In this document: positions 927 through 6,547 of the stretch, piece by piece
How the letters are laid out: each line of letters starts with the position of its first letter
Position numbering within the stretch: position 1 is the first letter of the stretch
From: Candidatus Latescibacterota bacterium
GTDB taxonomy: Bacteria; Latescibacterota; UBA2968; UBA8231
Direction of reading: 5' to 3'
NCBI GenBank assembly: GCA_022827165.1
Contig: JAJDTN010000416.1
Span: 1-24,007 of the forward strand
Length of the DNA: 24,007 nt
Notes under the pieces: generated by a model
What the model was told of the DNA's origin: nothing
Database searches by the model: none
Seen by the model: the letters and a program-made list of their open reading frames with translations, nothing else
Made by a program: the position numbers and the translations under genes

Positions 927-2117
927 TCAGGCTCCGGTGGCTGTGGAGGACAGGGGCTCGGTGCCCTCGTCGAGCACGGCGAGGTACTCGCGGTAGACGA
1001 AGACCCTGTTGCGGCGGCCGCCGGTAACCTCCGTGGCGATGTCGAGGTCGCACAGCCGCTGAAGCCCGGTCCCGACCGTGGGGGCCGAGAGGCCCGTGCG
1101 CTCGACGACCCGCGCCACGTTGACGACGACCAGCTCGGCGAGAGCCTCGTGGATCCGGAGCGCCGAGTTCGCGCCCCGGCCGCTGGCGGCGATTCTCGAT
1201 CGATCGCCCGAGGCCATGCTCAGCAGGCGCTGGGCGGTCTCGCGGGCGGAGGTGGCTACCGCGGCGACTCCCTCGAGAAAGAACTCGAGCCAGGACTCCC
1301 AGTCGCCGGTGCGCCGAACGACGTCGAGCAGCTCGTAGTAGCGGTCGCGGTGCTTCTTGAAGTACAGGCTGAGATACAACGCGGGCGACGAGAGCAGCCC
1401 GCGGTCGATCAGCATGAGGATGATCAGCATCCTTCCGGTGCGGCCGTTGCCGTCCATGAAGGGATGGATGGTCTCGAACTGGACGTGCGCCAGGCCGGCG
1501 CGCACCAGCGCCGGCAGACCGTCATCGACAGCGTGGACGAAGCGTTCCAGGTCGGACATGGCCGCGGCCGCCTCGCCCGGCGGGGGCGGGACGAAGGCGG
1601 CGTTCCCCGGCCGAGTCCCGCCGATCCAGTTCTGGGAGCGGCGGAACTCGCCCGGCCGCATGTGGCCGCCGCGGGCATCGGTGAGAAGGATCTGGTGGGC
1701 CTCGCGCAGCAGGCGGTTGCACAAGGGCAGGCCATCCTGGCCGGCGAGCCGGGTGGTGGCGTGGTCGACGGCCGCCACGTAGCGGGACACCTCGCGAAGA
1801 TCGTCGAGGGGTGCACCCGGAGAACGGGCGGACTCGAAGCGCAGGAGGTCGGACAGGGAGGACTGCGTACCCTCGATCTGGGAGGACAGGACGGCTTCCT
1901 TGCGCACGTAGCTGTAGATGAACAGACCGGGGTCGGGCAGGAGGGAGGCCGCACCGTCCAGCCGCCCGAGGGCATGGGTTGCCTCCTCGAGGAGCACCTG
2001 CAGAGGCCCCGTCATCCGGAGGGGCGGCTCGGGCGGCAACGGCCGGGGAACGAAGGCTCGCACCTCTTCGTCGCCATGGGATGTGACCAGGTAGTCCCCG
2101 GTCGGACCGCGGTTCAT
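927..2117 (-). CDS. Fic family protein with N-terminal inhibitory helix and C-terminal winged helix
   Basis: A Fic-domain enzyme of 396 residues. Fic proteins usually transfer AMP from ATP onto a hydroxyl group of a target protein. The catalytic loop HPFMDGNGRTGR is complete at residues 218-229. The N-terminal part carries SSQIEG at 78-83, matching the (S/T)xxxE(G/N) inhibitory motif of class II (self-inhibited) Fic proteins. The last ~90 residues look like a winged helix (VARVVERTGLSAPTVGTGLQ), common in stand-alone Fic proteins and suggestive of DNA binding. The start MNRGPTGDYLVTS is typical of the family and is preceded by GAGGAA four bases upstream. The metallophosphoesterase follows 14 bases downstream. 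A palindrome about 80 bp upstream is a candidate autoregulatory operator. No antitoxin partner gene is adjacent, consistent with intramolecular inhibition. The target is unknown. Confidence 0.95.
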   Translation of the reverse strand: MNRGPTGDYLVTSHGDEEVRAFVPRPLPPEPPLRMTGPLQVLLEEATHALGRLDGAASLLPDPGLFIYSYVRKEAVLSSQIEGTQSSLSDLLRFESARSPGAPLDDLREVSRYVAAVDHATTRLAGQDGLPLCNRLLREAHQILLTDARGGHMRPGEFRRSQNWIGGTRPGNAAFVPPPPGEAAAAMSDLERFVHAVDDGLPALVRAGLAHVQFETIHPFMDGNGRTGRMLIILMLIDRGLLSSPALYLSLYFKKHRDRYYELLDVVRRTGDWESWLEFFLEGVAAVATSARETAQRLLSMASGDRSRIAASGRGANSALRIHEALAELVVVNVARVVERTGLSAPTVGTGLQRLCDLDIATEVTGGRRNRVFVYREYLAVLDEGTEPLSSTATGA

Positions 2118-2265: not shown

Positions 2266-3816
2266 ATGACTCTGCCTCGTGGCGCCACCCTTCGGTTGCT
2301 CGCCCTGCTGGCCAGCACCATGCCTGCGGCCGGCCCCCTCGAAGCCCAGCTGCGGCTCACAGCCCACCACGAGTACCAGTTCGGCAACCTTCCCGACGCC
2401 GAACCGGCCGACCTGCGGGCCCTGTACCAACAGGTGAACCTCGGCTTCGAGTCCGCGGGATTCCTGGCCAGCGCCCGCAGCGAGGCCTTCCGCTCCAGCG
2501 GCGAGGACCGCGACTACCTCCATCTCGCCCAGCGGTCGCTGTCGTACCGGCACGGCGGCCTGGAGGCCACGGCCGGGCACTTCTACGCCCTCGTGGGCCG
2601 CGGTGTGCTGCTGCACGCCTTCGAGCTTCCCGGCGTCATCACCGAGGACCGCGTCTCCCGCCGGCGTTACCAGATCGTCCGCGACCTCGACGGCGCGCGG
2701 GTGAGCGGCCGGTGGCGGCAGGTGGAGGTGCTGGCCCTGCACGGCGTGCCCGTGAACAGCGAGCTGGCCCCGGGGCTGAAGGGTCTCGACCGGCGCCAGG
2801 GCCGGGTCTCCGGGGGGGCCGTCCGGGCCAGGGTGAGCGGTGAGATCGAGGTCGGGGCGGGACTGATCGAGTTCTCCTTCGGCGGGGAGGAGGAGCTCGG
2901 CGCCACCACCCACGGGGAGTTGCGCTTCGGATCCCTCCTCGAGAGGCTCGGACTGGGCGGCTGGTACGGGGATCTCTACGGCGAGTATGCCCAGATCGAC
3001 CCCGCCCCGGACCGCTGGCTGTCGCTGGACCGCGACCGTTCGCGGGCCCTTTACCTGGCCGGCACCCTGACGGGCGGGGCCTGGGGCCTGAGCCTGGAGC
3101 TGAAGGACTACGACGACTTCGCCTTCCCGAGCCTCAACAACCCGCCGACGCTGATCCGGGAGCACGAGGCCTTCCTCCTCAACCGGGAGACCCACGCCCT
3201 GCTCGCCGACGACGAGACCGGGGTGCAGGCCGAGCTGACCTGGGCCCTGCCCCGCGACATCGGACTGACCGCCGCCTGGAACCTGGCCACCCGCCGGGGA
3301 CCGGACCCGGGGGACGAGAAGTCCCTGCGCGAGTACTTCGTGCAGCTGGACTCCCCGGTGGGCGAGGCATTCCACGGGCAGCTGTTCCTCGATTACACGC
3401 GCAACCGCATCCTCGAGAACGAGCGCCGCCTGACCGCGGGCACGCGCTGGGACTGGTCCGCCGGCGGACGCCACGCCGCCAGCGCCGACCTGCAGGTGCA
3501 GGACGTGGACCGGCGCTTCGGCCGCAGCGAGTTCCCCTACGAGAACCTGCTGGGAACGGTGGAGCTCAGCCGCTATCCGGCCTGGACCTGGTCCCTGCAA
3601 CTGCAGAGGTCGAACGATCCCCTGGAGGCAGGGGCCTCGGAGTCGGGAGCGACGTACTGGTGGGCCCTCGGCGCCAGCTGGCGGTTCCGCGACGCCCACA
3701 CGCTGGACGTCTTCGGGGGCCGGCGCAGGACGGGGCTGGCCTGCACCGGGGGCAGCTGCTACGAGGTGCTGGGCTTCGAAGGCATCGAGCTGCGCCTCAC
3801 CAGCGAGGTGCTGTAG
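2266..3816 (+). CDS. Predicted outer-membrane beta-barrel-like protein, function unknown
   Basis: A 516-residue protein with an N-terminal signal-peptide-like stretch (hydrophobic residues about 8-24, then LEAQ as a likely cleavage site). The rest alternates short polar turns with amphipathic strands rich in aromatic residues, for example HHEYQFGNL, LHLAQRSLSYRH, GGWYGDLYGEYAQI, GEAFHGQLFLDYTRN and YPAWTWSLQLQRSN. The pattern ends in WWALGASWRFRDAHTLDVFG and a short terminal strand. This alternation over the full length resembles a porin-like barrel or the DUF6029-type proteins of FCB bacteria. I do not recognise a specific family with certainty. The ATG at 2266 follows a weak GAGAGA. It is the only gene of its transcription unit and converges on the selenoprotein gene, 23 bp away. 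Confidence 0.75.
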   Translation: MTLPRGATLRLLALLASTMPAAGPLEAQLRLTAHHEYQFGNLPDAEPADLRALYQQVNLGFESAGFLASARSEAFRSSGEDRDYLHLAQRSLSYRHGGLEATAGHFYALVGRGVLLHAFELPGVITEDRVSRRRYQIVRDLDGARVSGRWRQVEVLALHGVPVNSELAPGLKGLDRRQGRVSGGAVRARVSGEIEVGAGLIEFSFGGEEELGATTHGELRFGSLLERLGLGGWYGDLYGEYAQIDPAPDRWLSLDRDRSRALYLAGTLTGGAWGLSLELKDYDDFAFPSLNNPPTLIREHEAFLLNRETHALLADDETGVQAELTWALPRDIGLTAAWNLATRRGPDPGDEKSLREYFVQLDSPVGEAFHGQLFLDYTRNRILENERRLTAGTRWDWSAGGRHAASADLQVQDVDRRFGRSEFPYENLLGTVELSRYPAWTWSLQLQRSNDPLEAGASESGATYWWALGASWRFRDAHTLDVFGGRRRTGLACTGGSCYEVLGFEGIELRLTSEVL

Positions 3817-3840
3817 GGGCAGGGAGCCAGCCGCGCCCCT
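3815..3840. terminator. Possible bidirectional terminator between convergent genes
   Basis: AGGGGC (3815-3820) and GCCCCT (3835-3840) are exact reverse complements with a 14-base loop. They span the whole gap between two converging stop codons. The stem is short and there is no long T-tract, so this is weak. Confidence 0.3.
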
Positions 3841-4727
3841 TACTTCAGCAGAGTGACCTTGCGGGCGATGGCGGCGCCCCCTTGGCGCGCGGAAGCGAGG
3901 TAGACGCCGGTGGCGACCGCTTCACCGCCTTCGTCGCGCCCGTCCCAGGTCAGGGAGTGCGTCCCCGCCGCGTAGTGTCCGGACCAGGCGCGCACTACCT
4001 GCCCCCGCAGATCGAATACGGTCAGGGCCACGGGACCTGCCGTGGTCACCGTGAAGGAGAGGGTGGTCTCGGCGTTGAAGGGATTCGGCCAGGCCTCCAG
4101 GGCGAAGCCGGCGGGCACCCGGGGGGCGGCTCCCACCGCCGTGCCGATCTCCTCCTCTTCCTCTTCGACCTCCTCCAGGGCGGCGGCCAGATCAGCCAGG
4201 GCGGTGTCGATGGCCTCGCGGATCTCGCCATCGTTGTAACGCTGGCCGAGCCTGGCGTCGGGCGACCGGTAGCGGACGACGCCCTCGTGATCGATGACGA
4301 AGTAGTAGTCCTGGACCACGCCGTAGTCCCGGGCCACCCCGGAACCGTTGACCAGTATCGGGTAGGTTGCCAGACCGTCGTCTACCCAGATCGACTTGAC
4401 GCTCGATGCCCGACCGTCCCAGATATCGATTCCGAGGGCGATGAGCTGATCGCCCCCGTAGTCCTGCCAGACTGCCTCGGAACTCGCGGCCTCCGCGACG
4501 CAGTACGGTCAGGTGTTCCCGAGGAAGTTGATGTAGACGACCTTCTCGCCGAGGAAGTCGCCCAGCGACACGAGCTCTCCGTCCACGGTCTCGAGCTCGA
4601 AGGTGGGGGCCGTGTCGCCGGCCGCCGCCTGGGCCTCGGCCTCCCCGGCTCCGGCCACGTGAAGAGCGGTGAGGGCGACCGCCGCGCAGGCGAACGGTCC
4701 CTTCCGCAGGACGCTTCTAGCTCTCAT
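3840..4727 (-). CDS. Secreted thioredoxin-fold selenoprotein (UPYC redoxin) with FlgD-like C-terminal domain
   Basis: The frame from the ATG at 4727 is open to a TAA at 3840 except for one TGA at 4511-4509. Read as selenocysteine, this gives 295 residues with U73-P-Y-C76, exactly where AhpC/TSA-TlpA-type redoxins carry CxxC. Order of parts: signal peptide (1-33, ending AEAQA); redoxin domain (about 37-180) with VVYINFLGNT before the motif, a YP cis-proline-like site at 122-123 and FVIDHEGVVRY near 143-153; a glutamate-rich linker (185-193); and a FlgD/Por-sorting-like Ig domain (about 208-295: WPNPFN, VFDLRGQVV, WDGRDEGG, GVYLA, KVTLLK). The start at 4727 is preferred over the GTG at 4763 because AGGGGA lies just upstream and it begins a normal signal peptide. 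It overlaps the end of tlpA by 11 bases. A conventional annotation would split it into an 84-residue fragment and a 165-residue fragment starting at a GTG (4337). Likely role: periplasmic or surface thiol redox chemistry; exact substrate unknown. Confidence 0.85.
4471..4504 (-). promoter_or_regulatory. SECIS-like hairpin directly after the in-frame TGA
   Basis: On the minus strand, counting from the base after TGA, TCGCGG (11-16) pairs with CCGCGA (20-25) around an AGG triloop at 17-19. An outer ACTGC (5-9) pairs with GCAGT (34-38). Bacterial SECIS elements are stem-loops right after UGA with a small G-containing loop about 16-37 bases away, which fits. Pairing was done by eye; folding energy and conservation were not computed. 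Confidence 0.6.
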
Positions 4728-5283
4728 CGGCTTCCCCTTTCGTCGAATCCGGAACGGCCTCACCCAGCAGCTCCACCAGCCTGGCGCGCAGGCGGATCTC
4801 GTCTCCCGGCTTGTACCCGAAGTGCTTGTACACCACCTCGCCCTCCGTGGAGAGGAGCAGCGACGCCGGCACCGCGGGCAGCTGGAACTGCTTCATCACC
4901 TGCCGCGAGTGGTCGAGGAGGACCGGCAGCTCCAAGCGGTGGCGCTTGAGGAAGGGCCTCACCTTGGGCTGATTGCGCGGACCGTCGACATTGACGGCGT
5001 AGACCCCCACTCCGCGGTCCTCGAACTCCCTGGCGATCTTCTGCACCGCGGGCAGCCCCTTGATGCAGGGCTTGCACCAGGTGGCCCAGAAATCGAGGAT
5101 CACCGGCCCCTCTTCCAGCGCCTTCTGCAGTGAGAACTCCTTGCCGTCGAGGGACGGCAGGGTGAACTGGGACTTGGCCGCCGCCGCGGCAGGCGCCGGA
5201 GGAAGGAGCACGAGGCCGAAGGCCGGCAGGATCAGCGCCATTCGGGCCATGGCCGCGAGGGCCTTGCGGTTGCTCCTGCTCAT
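4717..5283 (-). CDS. TlpA-like thioredoxin-family protein, secreted
   Basis: A 188-residue thiol-disulfide oxidoreductase of the TlpA/ResA type. Residues 1-36 form a signal peptide or membrane anchor (ALILPAFGLVLLPPAPAAAAA). The thioredoxin domain follows, with the classic VILDFWATWCKPCIKG at 61-76 and active-site cysteines C70 and C73. VPASLLL further on holds the cis-proline, followed by STEGEVVYKHFG. Such proteins reduce disulfides outside the cytoplasm, for example in cytochrome c maturation, or carry electrons to a partner. GGAGGA stands a few bases before the ATG at 5283. The gene sits 25 bp behind the mechanosensitive channel gene and its end overlaps the start of the selenoprotein, so the two redox proteins are probably translated together and may be partners. 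Confidence 0.93.
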   Translation of the reverse strand: MSRSNRKALAAMARMALILPAFGLVLLPPAPAAAAAKSQFTLPSLDGKEFSLQKALEEGPVILDFWATWCKPCIKGLPAVQKIAREFEDRGVGVYAVNVDGPRNQPKVRPFLKRHRLELPVLLDHSRQVMKQFQLPAVPASLLLSTEGEVVYKHFGYKPGDEIRLRARLVELLGEAVPDSTKGEADES

Positions 5284-5308
5284 CTTCTCATCCTCCCCGG
5301 CTTCTACC

Positions 5309-6547
5309 TTATTGCCGCGGCGTCGATGCGTGCAAGGCGGCCGCGAAGTCCGACCCCGCCGGCTCCTGGTAGACGCGCAGCCCGAAGCGCGGCACCACCG
5401 CCAGCAGATGGTCGAATATGTCGGACTGGATCCCCTCGTAATCGGCCCACACCGTGGTGTTGGTGAAGACGTAGATCTCCAGGGGCAGACCCTGGGCCGC
5501 CGGCGCCAGCTGCCGGATCAGGAAGGTCATGTCCTGGCGGATTCGGGGGTGGCTGCGCAGGTAGGCGGCCACGTAGGCCCGGAAGGTGCCCACGTTGGTC
5601 AGGCGCCGGCCGTTGACCAGCTCCGAGGCGTCGACCCGCGACTCGGCGTTGTGTTCCTCCACTTCCTTCTGACGGGAGTCCAGGTAGTGGCGGATCAGCT
5701 CGAAGCGCTCGAAGCGCTGCAGCATCTCGGCGTCGCAGAACCGGATCGAGTTCATGTCGATGTGGATGGCGCGCTTGATCCGGCGGCCGCCGCTGTCCTG
5801 CATGCCGCGCCAGTTCTTGAAGGAGACGTCCACCAGCTTGTGGGTGGGAATGGTGGTGATCGTCTTGTCCCAGTTCTGCACCTTCACCGTGTGCAGGGCG
5901 ATGTCGATGACGTCGCCGTCGGCTCCGAAAGTGGGGACCTCGATCCAGTCGCCCACCTTGACGAGCCGGTTGGAGGCGATGGTGAAGCTGGCCGTCAGCG
6001 ACAGCAGGGTGTCGCGGAAGACGAGGATGACCACGGCCATGACCGCGCCGACGCCCGAGAGCAGCACCCAGGGCGAGCGCCCCGTCAGGACCGCCACCGT
6101 CATCAGGCCGCCGATGACGTAGAGGACGATCTTGAAGATCTGGGCGTAACTCTTGATCGGAACTTCGGTGCGCGCGTCGTAGTCGGCCGTCGCCTCCTGC
6201 AGGGCGCCGACCGCGGCCCCCGCCACGAGCAGGACCACCATGAGCAGCGCGGCGTTCACCACCTGCAGGGCCGTCTCCGTCGAGCCCGGCAAACCCTCGG
6301 CGCCGTAGTAGAAGACGAGCACCGGCAGCAGCAGGGCGGCGCGGTTGAGGACGCCCTGGTGCAGCAGCACGTCGTCGAGCTTGGTGCTGCTCGCCTGGAT
6401 CAGGTGGGACATGGCGCGCAGCAGCACCCTGCGGGCCAGGAGGTGGGCCACCCAGGCGACCAGGAAGAGACCGGCGGTGTAGGCCGCCTGGCCCTTCAAG
6501 GGATGCTCGGCGAACCACAGCGTCAGGGCCTCGATGAACTCGTGCAT
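5309..6547 (-). CDS. ybdG: YbdG-type mechanosensitive ion channel (MscS family)
   Basis: An MscS-family channel of 412 residues. The N-terminal half holds about five membrane helices. The pore-lining helix and beta domain follow: LVFRDTLLSLTASFTIASN, then VKVGDWIEVPTFGADGDVID and VKVQNWDKTITTIPTHKLV, then FKNWRGMQDSGGRRIKR. These stretches closely match what I recall of E. coli YbdG, which also has about the same length (415). The channel opens under membrane tension to release solutes in osmotic downshock. I chose the ATG at 6547 over a GTG at 6580 because it starts just before the first amphipathic helix. It also has TACCTT six bases upstream, mirroring the divergent hrpA gene. It is probably the first gene of an operon with tlpA and the selenoprotein. 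Confidence 0.93.
   Translation of the reverse strand: MHEFIEALTLWFAEHPLKGQAAYTAGLFLVAWVAHLLARRVLLRAMSHLIQASSTKLDDVLLHQGVLNRAALLLPVLVFYYGAEGLPGSTETALQVVNAALLMVVLLVAGAAVGALQEATADYDARTEVPIKSYAQIFKIVLYVIGGLMTVAVLTGRSPWVLLSGVGAVMAVVILVFRDTLLSLTASFTIASNRLVKVGDWIEVPTFGADGDVIDIALHTVKVQNWDKTITTIPTHKLVDVSFKNWRGMQDSGGRRIKRAIHIDMNSIRFCDAEMLQRFERFELIRHYLDSRQKEVEEHNAESRVDASELVNGRRLTNVGTFRAYVAAYLRSHPRIRQDMTFLIRQLAPAAQGLPLEIYVFTNTTVWADYEGIQSDIFDHLLAVVPRFGLRVYQEPAGSDFAAALHASTPRQ

Follow-up and report, generated by a model that had tools for sequence, protein, structure and literature searches.

A minus-strand gene in the window, the whole 24,007-nucleotide stretch of Candidatus Latescibacterota DNA analysed here, very probably encodes an exported redoxin of the AhpC/TSA type that contains selenocysteine (Sec) and is made as an intact product despite an apparent stop codon. 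Comparison with related genes makes Sec at residue 73 close to certain, and the product is most likely an extracytoplasmic thiol-disulfide oxidoreductase working with TlpA. Reading of the frame from 4727 to 3840 gave an ATG, 72 codons, one TGA (4511-4509), 222 codons and a TAA, with the TGA interrupting an otherwise open frame exactly where the preliminary description had placed it. Pfam matches to AhpC-TSA (residues 37-153, 56.9 bits against a cut-off of 26) and Redoxin (residues 36-155) run across residue 73, so that the TGA lies inside one domain; it falls at the first Cys of the expected CxxC (U-P-Y-C), also as first described. Among the 12 NCBIfam models listed, TIGR04183 alone exceeded its cut-off; no redoxin or selenoprotein model did so, the best being the ResA model NF002854 (37 against 170 bits). 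The features of the gene and its surroundings are collected in Table 1; the T9SS-like tail, the TlpA and DUF6029 neighbours and the comparative SECIS evidence go beyond the preliminary description.

Table 1 Features of the window, and large Omp28-like UxxC frames near DUF6029 genes in other genomes
Feature	Position	Strand	Remarks
Predicted selenoprotein gene, UxxC redoxin with C-terminal FlgD-Ig / T9SS-type tail	3840..4727	-	295 residues, Sec 73, stop TAA
In-frame TGA, predicted to be read as selenocysteine	4509..4511	-	residue 73, first position of UPYC; kept in relatives
AhpC-TSA/Redoxin (thioredoxin-fold) domain	4263..4622	-	residues 36-155; Pfam, AlphaFold2 model, Foldseek
Signal-peptide-like N-terminal segment	4626..4727	-	about residues 1-34; judged by eye
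FlgD Ig-like / T9SS type A sorting domain	3855..4091	-	residues 213-291; TIGR04183 29.4 bits, cut-off 23
SECIS-like hairpin, TCGCGG-AGG-CCGCGA	4484..4498	-	loop 4492-4490; 16 nt from TGA to loop
TlpA/ResA-type redoxin, WCKPC	4717..5283	-	immediately upstream; its end runs into the start of the selenoprotein gene
DUF6029 (PF19494) protein, probably an outer-membrane beta-barrel	2266..3816	+	convergent neighbour; 59.5 bits, cut-off 27
Large Omp28-like UxxC frame	L128:1298-3388
Large Omp28-like UxxC frame	L133:8396-10441
Large Omp28-like UxxC frame	L144:1263-3398
Large Omp28-like UxxC frame	L147:494-2512
Large Omp28-like UxxC frame	L147:2516-4558

The redoxin domain (residues 36-185, with C for U) was searched against 147 relatives at E<=1e-12, giving 26 matches in 19 genomes. 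Exactly one in-frame TGA was present in 24 of the 26, from 17 genomes, at the same codon in all 24 and at identities reaching down to about 40%; their motifs are UPYC, UPFC, UPDC, UPLC, UPAC, UPVC, UTFC, USFC, USHC and UGFC. A read error is very unlikely, since 24 genes from 17 genomes share this TGA. The two matches with Cys (in G095 and G121) were the weakest and are ordinary TlpA types. The nearest genome compared, G001, has 23% of sampled 31-letter words in common with the window, and its homologue is 92% identical with the same single in-frame TGA. Between the two, dN was 0.016 and dS 0.162 over 112 codons after the TGA: protein-level selection goes on past it. The distribution of the gene among relatives is patchy: at 1e-12 the search found nothing in three other genomes of the same genus (G002-G004, 76-87% complete), nor in G005-G007, G011, G016 and G018. 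Weaker redoxin matches with one in-frame TGA each were seen at C53:13903-14379 of G001 (E 2.7e-5) and at L089 in G122 (E 4.6e-13), a genome outside the phylum.

The protein database search returned 74 matches. A BLASTP match spanning residue 150 was found in 48 proteins (from these 74 plus P0077), of which 47 begin after residue 73, in agreement with the earlier suggestion that annotation splits this gene and loses the active site; the one that crosses residue 73 is a Cys-containing TlpA-type protein. Cys homologues aligning across the TGA, proposed at the outset as a check on the Sec reading, were readily found: among the matches listed, both motif positions are Cys in every one of the 83 redoxin-type proteins that align across the site. 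These (P0060, P0076 and P0078-P0158) come from a pool of 157 from two protein searches, the other 74 comprising 43 that start after the site, four (P0044-P0046 and P0050) that match only after it, and 27, P0073 included, that were taken as tail-only with unrelated N-termini. P0044-P0046 and P0050 are distant proteins, possibly belonging to another truncated Sec subfamily. Among the proteins listed, which take in the best 120 of 4080 profile matches, no complete one fuses such a redoxin with a FlgD-Ig tail; the profile search drifted into ordinary TlpA proteins because of two Cys TlpA rows in the alignment. A scan of contigs yielded two weak matches to the redoxin and 14 relatives of the tail domain, and the phylum-level search around G122 comprised G122 alone.

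Immediately downstream of the TGA, at positions 14-28 counted from it, lies a hairpin that SelB and tRNA-Sec would recognise, leading to insertion of Sec at residue 73. The bacterial SECIS (bSECIS) model, as given in the available part of PMC13188914, has a 3-9 nt loop with G within the first two loop positions, a 4-16 bp stem, a spacing of 16-37 nt and an energy of at most -7.5 kcal/mol. The window hairpin agrees with this model, having 6 bp, the loop AGG with G second, a spacing of 16 nt and -8.0 kcal/mol for the hairpin alone. At -7.5 kcal/mol, 11 of the 20 Sec candidates passed a rule-based scan, compared with 50 of the 566 remaining in-frame TGAs, which is supportive but not decisive; the paralogue group L084, with its loop 15 nt after the TGA and thus one below the published range, fails the scan. 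Search of positions 3600-5400 with Rfam gave no SECIS family, the sole match being a miRNA far below cut-off. The folding energy after the TGA is ordinary for the codons of the window gene (z 0.14; 517 of 1000 synonymous shuffles as low), and the window is not among the 9 of 18 sequences for which fewer than 50 of 1000 synonymous shuffles were as low. The assignment of a SECIS element therefore rests on comparison, namely on covariation and synonymous freezing.

In the alignment of 18 distinct sequences, 92.6% of cells in the hairpin are paired against 84.3% in shuffled alignments (0 of 500 as high), and sliding the hairpin to other positions gave 31.5-55.6%. Pair 16-26 is G-C in 13 sequences and U-A in five, a compensatory change, and RNAalifold recovers five of the hairpin's pairs. 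The covariation score exceeds all 500 shuffles, which ignore relatedness, while two of five covariation measures, both counts, were equalled by 25 of 500. Where the amino acid is equal, the codon itself is also the same in 614 of 637 comparisons at +4..+8, whereas the figures are 1208 of 2685 upstream, 203 of 332 at +1..+3 and 133 of 395 at +9..+14 (235 diverged gene pairs; L058 and L072 left out). This synonymous freezing of the hairpin codons indicates selection on the nucleotides and not on the protein alone. That the locus is a pseudogene, two separate genes or a TGA created by sequencing error, as might be supposed from standard gene calling, which stops at the TGA, and from the ORF list, where the gene appears as pieces of 84 and 165 aa, is extremely improbable given the recurrence of the same codon across diverged genomes, the purifying selection after it, the frozen hairpin and the continuous domain.

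The machinery for Sec insertion was read from near kin. In G001, selA (551 bits), selB (337 bits) and selC (73 bits) are contiguous on C105, and selD (355 bits) lies on C7, itself with one TGA. In 60 relatives, selB passed its cut-off in 44, selC in 45, selA in 45 and selD in 47, although some of the selC scores lie close to the threshold of 47 bits, and other tRNAs may account for these. Sixteen family-level genomes carry the gene; among these, selA and selB were each over cut-off in 15 and selD in 16, and selC exceeded 60 bits in 14; one or two sel genes are missing or in pieces in G009, G013, G014 and G020 (73-89% complete). SelB and tRNA-Sec are also present in G122. With the shared TGA and the downstream hairpin, these genes uphold the selenocysteine reading of the preliminary description. 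As a separate observation, the in-frame TGA of the G001 selD (C7:42957-43880, in L086) has counterparts in 40 of the 47 SelD proteins over cut-off in relatives, so that selenophosphate synthetase is probably itself a selenoprotein here. The G001 stretch with selA, selB and selC also contains a CxxU frame (YCSSU; L085:2041, plus strand), SelW/Rdx-like by eye, with a strong hairpin after its TGA.

Reassignment of TGA to another amino acid in this lineage, or non-specific readthrough, would leave an open frame that is locally indistinguishable from the one observed. Against this, TGA is the stop codon of 8 of 12 other window genes checked, which contradicts a general reassignment, and it ends the selenoprotein gene itself in the relatives' copies at L050, L053 and L068. 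The presence of Sec machinery in near kin, and the correspondence of the position to a redox Cys in relatives, likewise make this explanation very unlikely.

An AlphaFold2 model was built from a 28-row alignment (mean pLDDT 77.7, pTM 0.57). It adopts a thioredoxin-like fold with residue 73 immediately before helix 74-89, after which come a long helix at 166-191 and, at the end, a domain rich in beta structure; pLDDT is below 50 at residues 5-30 and 193-208. In a Foldseek search of the PDB, the best matches were to ResA and to AhpE, a 1-Cys peroxiredoxin (TMt about 0.8). Typical peroxiredoxins carry PxxxT/SxxC around the peroxidatic residue. This motif is absent from the window protein, in which G-N-T precede U73 and G stands at -3. 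The TlpA/ResA/CcmG oxidoreductases have the same fold (ResA entries at TMt 0.77-0.86 among the 50 matches listed), and the Cys relatives retrieved are of this type; the window protein differs from them in Sec for the first Cys, in GNTUPYC instead of WATWCPPC, and in the extra surface-type tail. The UPYC of the predicted 295-residue product would stand where ordinary TlpA/ResA-type proteins have CxxC. The ResA-like WAxxUGC selenoprotein model NF041054 also has, by its name, Sec in the motif, but the window protein scores 20 bits against its cut-off of 300 and the motif differs.

Judged from the protein sequence, the signal peptide would direct passage across the inner membrane, and in members with a FlgD-Ig/T9SS-type tail a type IX-like system may then carry the protein to the cell surface. 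The FlgD_ig match covers residues 221-280 (36 bits against a cut-off of 27), and of 34 genomes examined for SprA_N, a family of the T9SS translocon, 32 scored above its cut-off, among them G001. Most of the members read have a FlgD-Ig tail, that in L058 is dockerin-like, and those in L055-L057 have none, so that surface sorting is not essential to the family. At L051:91-2007 (minus strand), a hydrolase-like insertion, resembling a serine hydrolase (beta-lactamase-like, by eye), lies between the Sec redoxin and the FlgD-Ig tail.

TlpA and/or DUF6029 genes lie beside the selenoprotein gene in 17 of 23 loci searched, including that of G122, where the order is rearranged. The remaining six loci hold the USHC paralogue group, with no TlpA or DUF6029 in the DNA searched, which for five of them spans just 3.4 kb. 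The G001 copy of DUF6029 is 94% identical to that of the window, and DUF6029, mentioned by a single paper in the literature searched (PMC9603273), is described there as a possible outer-membrane export barrel. A Fic_N/Fic domain protein (927-2117, minus strand) adjoins the DUF6029 gene of the window. At the surface, the selenol/thiol pair would catalyse thiol-disulfide (or selenenylsulfide) oxidoreduction; servicing by the co-encoded TlpA and a link to the DUF6029 barrel are both probable.

A simpler account, to which we assign a substantial though clearly less than even probability, accepts Sec but takes the product to be an ordinary periplasmic selenoprotein, TlpA/ResA-like or peroxiredoxin-like, with a tail that merely anchors it and neighbours that are incidental. 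The tail-less members, the fold matches to ResA and 1-Cys AhpE, and the USHC group lacking TlpA and DUF6029 in the stretches searched are all compatible with it, as are the UxxC selenoproteins of PF00578 and PF08534 already catalogued in the part of PMC13188914 available. The tail, however, exceeds a curated cut-off and SprA is present in kin, and the recurrence of TlpA and/or DUF6029 extends to a locus outside the phylum despite the rearranged order.

We examined the neighbourhood of DUF6029 across bacteria. DUF6029 was found in at least 45 of 291 genomes (E<=1e-10), a lower bound because G001, G008, G012, G014 and G025 are unlisted though tblastn with the DUF6029 protein of the window finds it in them. 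From 32 of the 45 genomes, including all 24 of the same domain, 32 loci were analysed (five from one genus, g9), and TlpA adjoins DUF6029 in 30 of these loci from diverse bacteria. Thioredoxin-like UxxC frames, picked by eye from in-frame TGAs, occur near TlpA-DUF6029 in nine of the 32 loci (11 genes). Five of the 11 resemble Omp28 and end in FlgD-Ig or dockerin domains; measured from the previous stop, their open frames run to 673-712 codons (Table 1). Pfam scanning of ten UxxC genes placed five over cut-off for AhpC-TSA, Omp28 or DUF1223 (L123, the first of L133, L146 and both of L147) and four below it (L125, L129, L144 and the second of L133); the L128 frame matched none of the three. The Omp28 matches start after the U. 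Cys versions lie upstream of TlpA at L120 (CTWC), L121 (CLPC), L133 (CQNC), L134 (CPAC) and L140 (CAPC).

The background consisted of 800 kb drawn from 19 genomes as 40 stretches of 20 kb; two of these genomes have no SelB. It contained 29 UxxC frames, of which none looked thioredoxin-like by eye, compared with 18 UxxC frames in the 338 kb near DUF6029. With a fixed motif, which misses five of the 11 genes picked by eye, there were six hits in the 338 kb and one in the background, the latter not thioredoxin-like by eye. SelB was over cut-off in 22 of 26 DUF6029 genomes against 36 of 80 controls (p 0.0005), the controls being every second genome of the list and possibly including some DUF6029 carriers. 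When two same-phylum genomes without SelB were left out of the controls and G045 and G049 out of the 26, SelB was over cut-off in 20 of the 24 same-domain genomes with DUF6029 and in 36 of the 78 lacking a match (Fisher p 0.002, uncorrected for phylogeny). A tRNA-Sec was over threshold in 22 of the 26 DUF6029 genomes searched; G219 has selC, selB and DUF6029 inside a span of 18 kb, and G166 has selC and DUF6029 inside one of about 9 kb. We give nearly, but not quite, even odds to a module, spread across many bacterial families, of a DUF6029 barrel, TlpA and one or more exported UxxC/CxxC thioredoxin-like proteins (AhpC/TSA or Omp28-like), which would be a main extracytoplasmic use of Sec there and include surface-tailed selenoproteins of ~700 residues.

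Redoxin selenoproteins with UxxC are known. Table 1 of PMC13188914, in its available part, includes a Prx-like thiol:disulfide oxidoreductase selenoprotein (PF00578, UxxC/UxxU) and a Redoxin family selenoprotein (PF08534, UxxC). Among the GOS selenoproteins, the part of PMC2398784 available describes 'Prx-like 1' and 'Prx-like 3' with UxxC and domain fusions of such proteins, and Prx-like UxxC proteins appear in the accessible text of PMC9312934. The window protein shares with the PF00578/PF08534 selenoproteins its Pfam domains and the U in UxxC, and adds the FlgD-Ig/T9SS-type tail, a signal peptide recognised by eye, the TlpA operon and the DUF6029 neighbour; this distinction is by description, and some of their examples may be relatives. 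The tail (29.4 bits) and the SprA family in kin resemble those of known T9SS cargo with a type A sorting domain (TIGR04183), from which the window protein would differ as a selenoprotein cargo.

Selenoproteins beyond the cytoplasm have likewise been catalogued, from protein families unrelated to that of the window protein: outer-membrane examples, in the part of PMC13188914 available, are a TonB-dependent receptor with an FCYXU motif and an MtrB/PioB-type barrel, and secreted ones, in that of PMC2398784, are trypsin-like and MucD-like proteases. Our literature search, whose scope excluded subscription papers and preprints, found no report, judging by titles, of a selenoprotein T9SS cargo and nothing on a selenoprotein with Omp28. 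The terms T9SS, FlgD and 'secret' are absent from the available text of PMC13188914, the terms sought are absent from PMC12013277, and the available part of PMC8318568 names Latescibacteria solely as a reconstructed genome. The tailed subfamily and its neighbourhood were not found in the literature searched.

If this reading is true, scarce selenium is invested by some bacteria in thiol chemistry that takes place at the outer membrane or outside it. Because reviews already include selenoproteins of other families that are secreted or lie in the outer membrane, the location alone is not new; what would be new is a surface-sorted redoxin together with a repeated gene module containing a TlpA-type redoxin and DUF6029. 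Each of the 47 database relatives found is truncated at the TGA with loss of the active site, so that annotation misses these proteins, and it probably also misses the larger Omp28-like UxxC genes by DUF6029. The neighbourhood, in turn, gives a lead on DUF6029.
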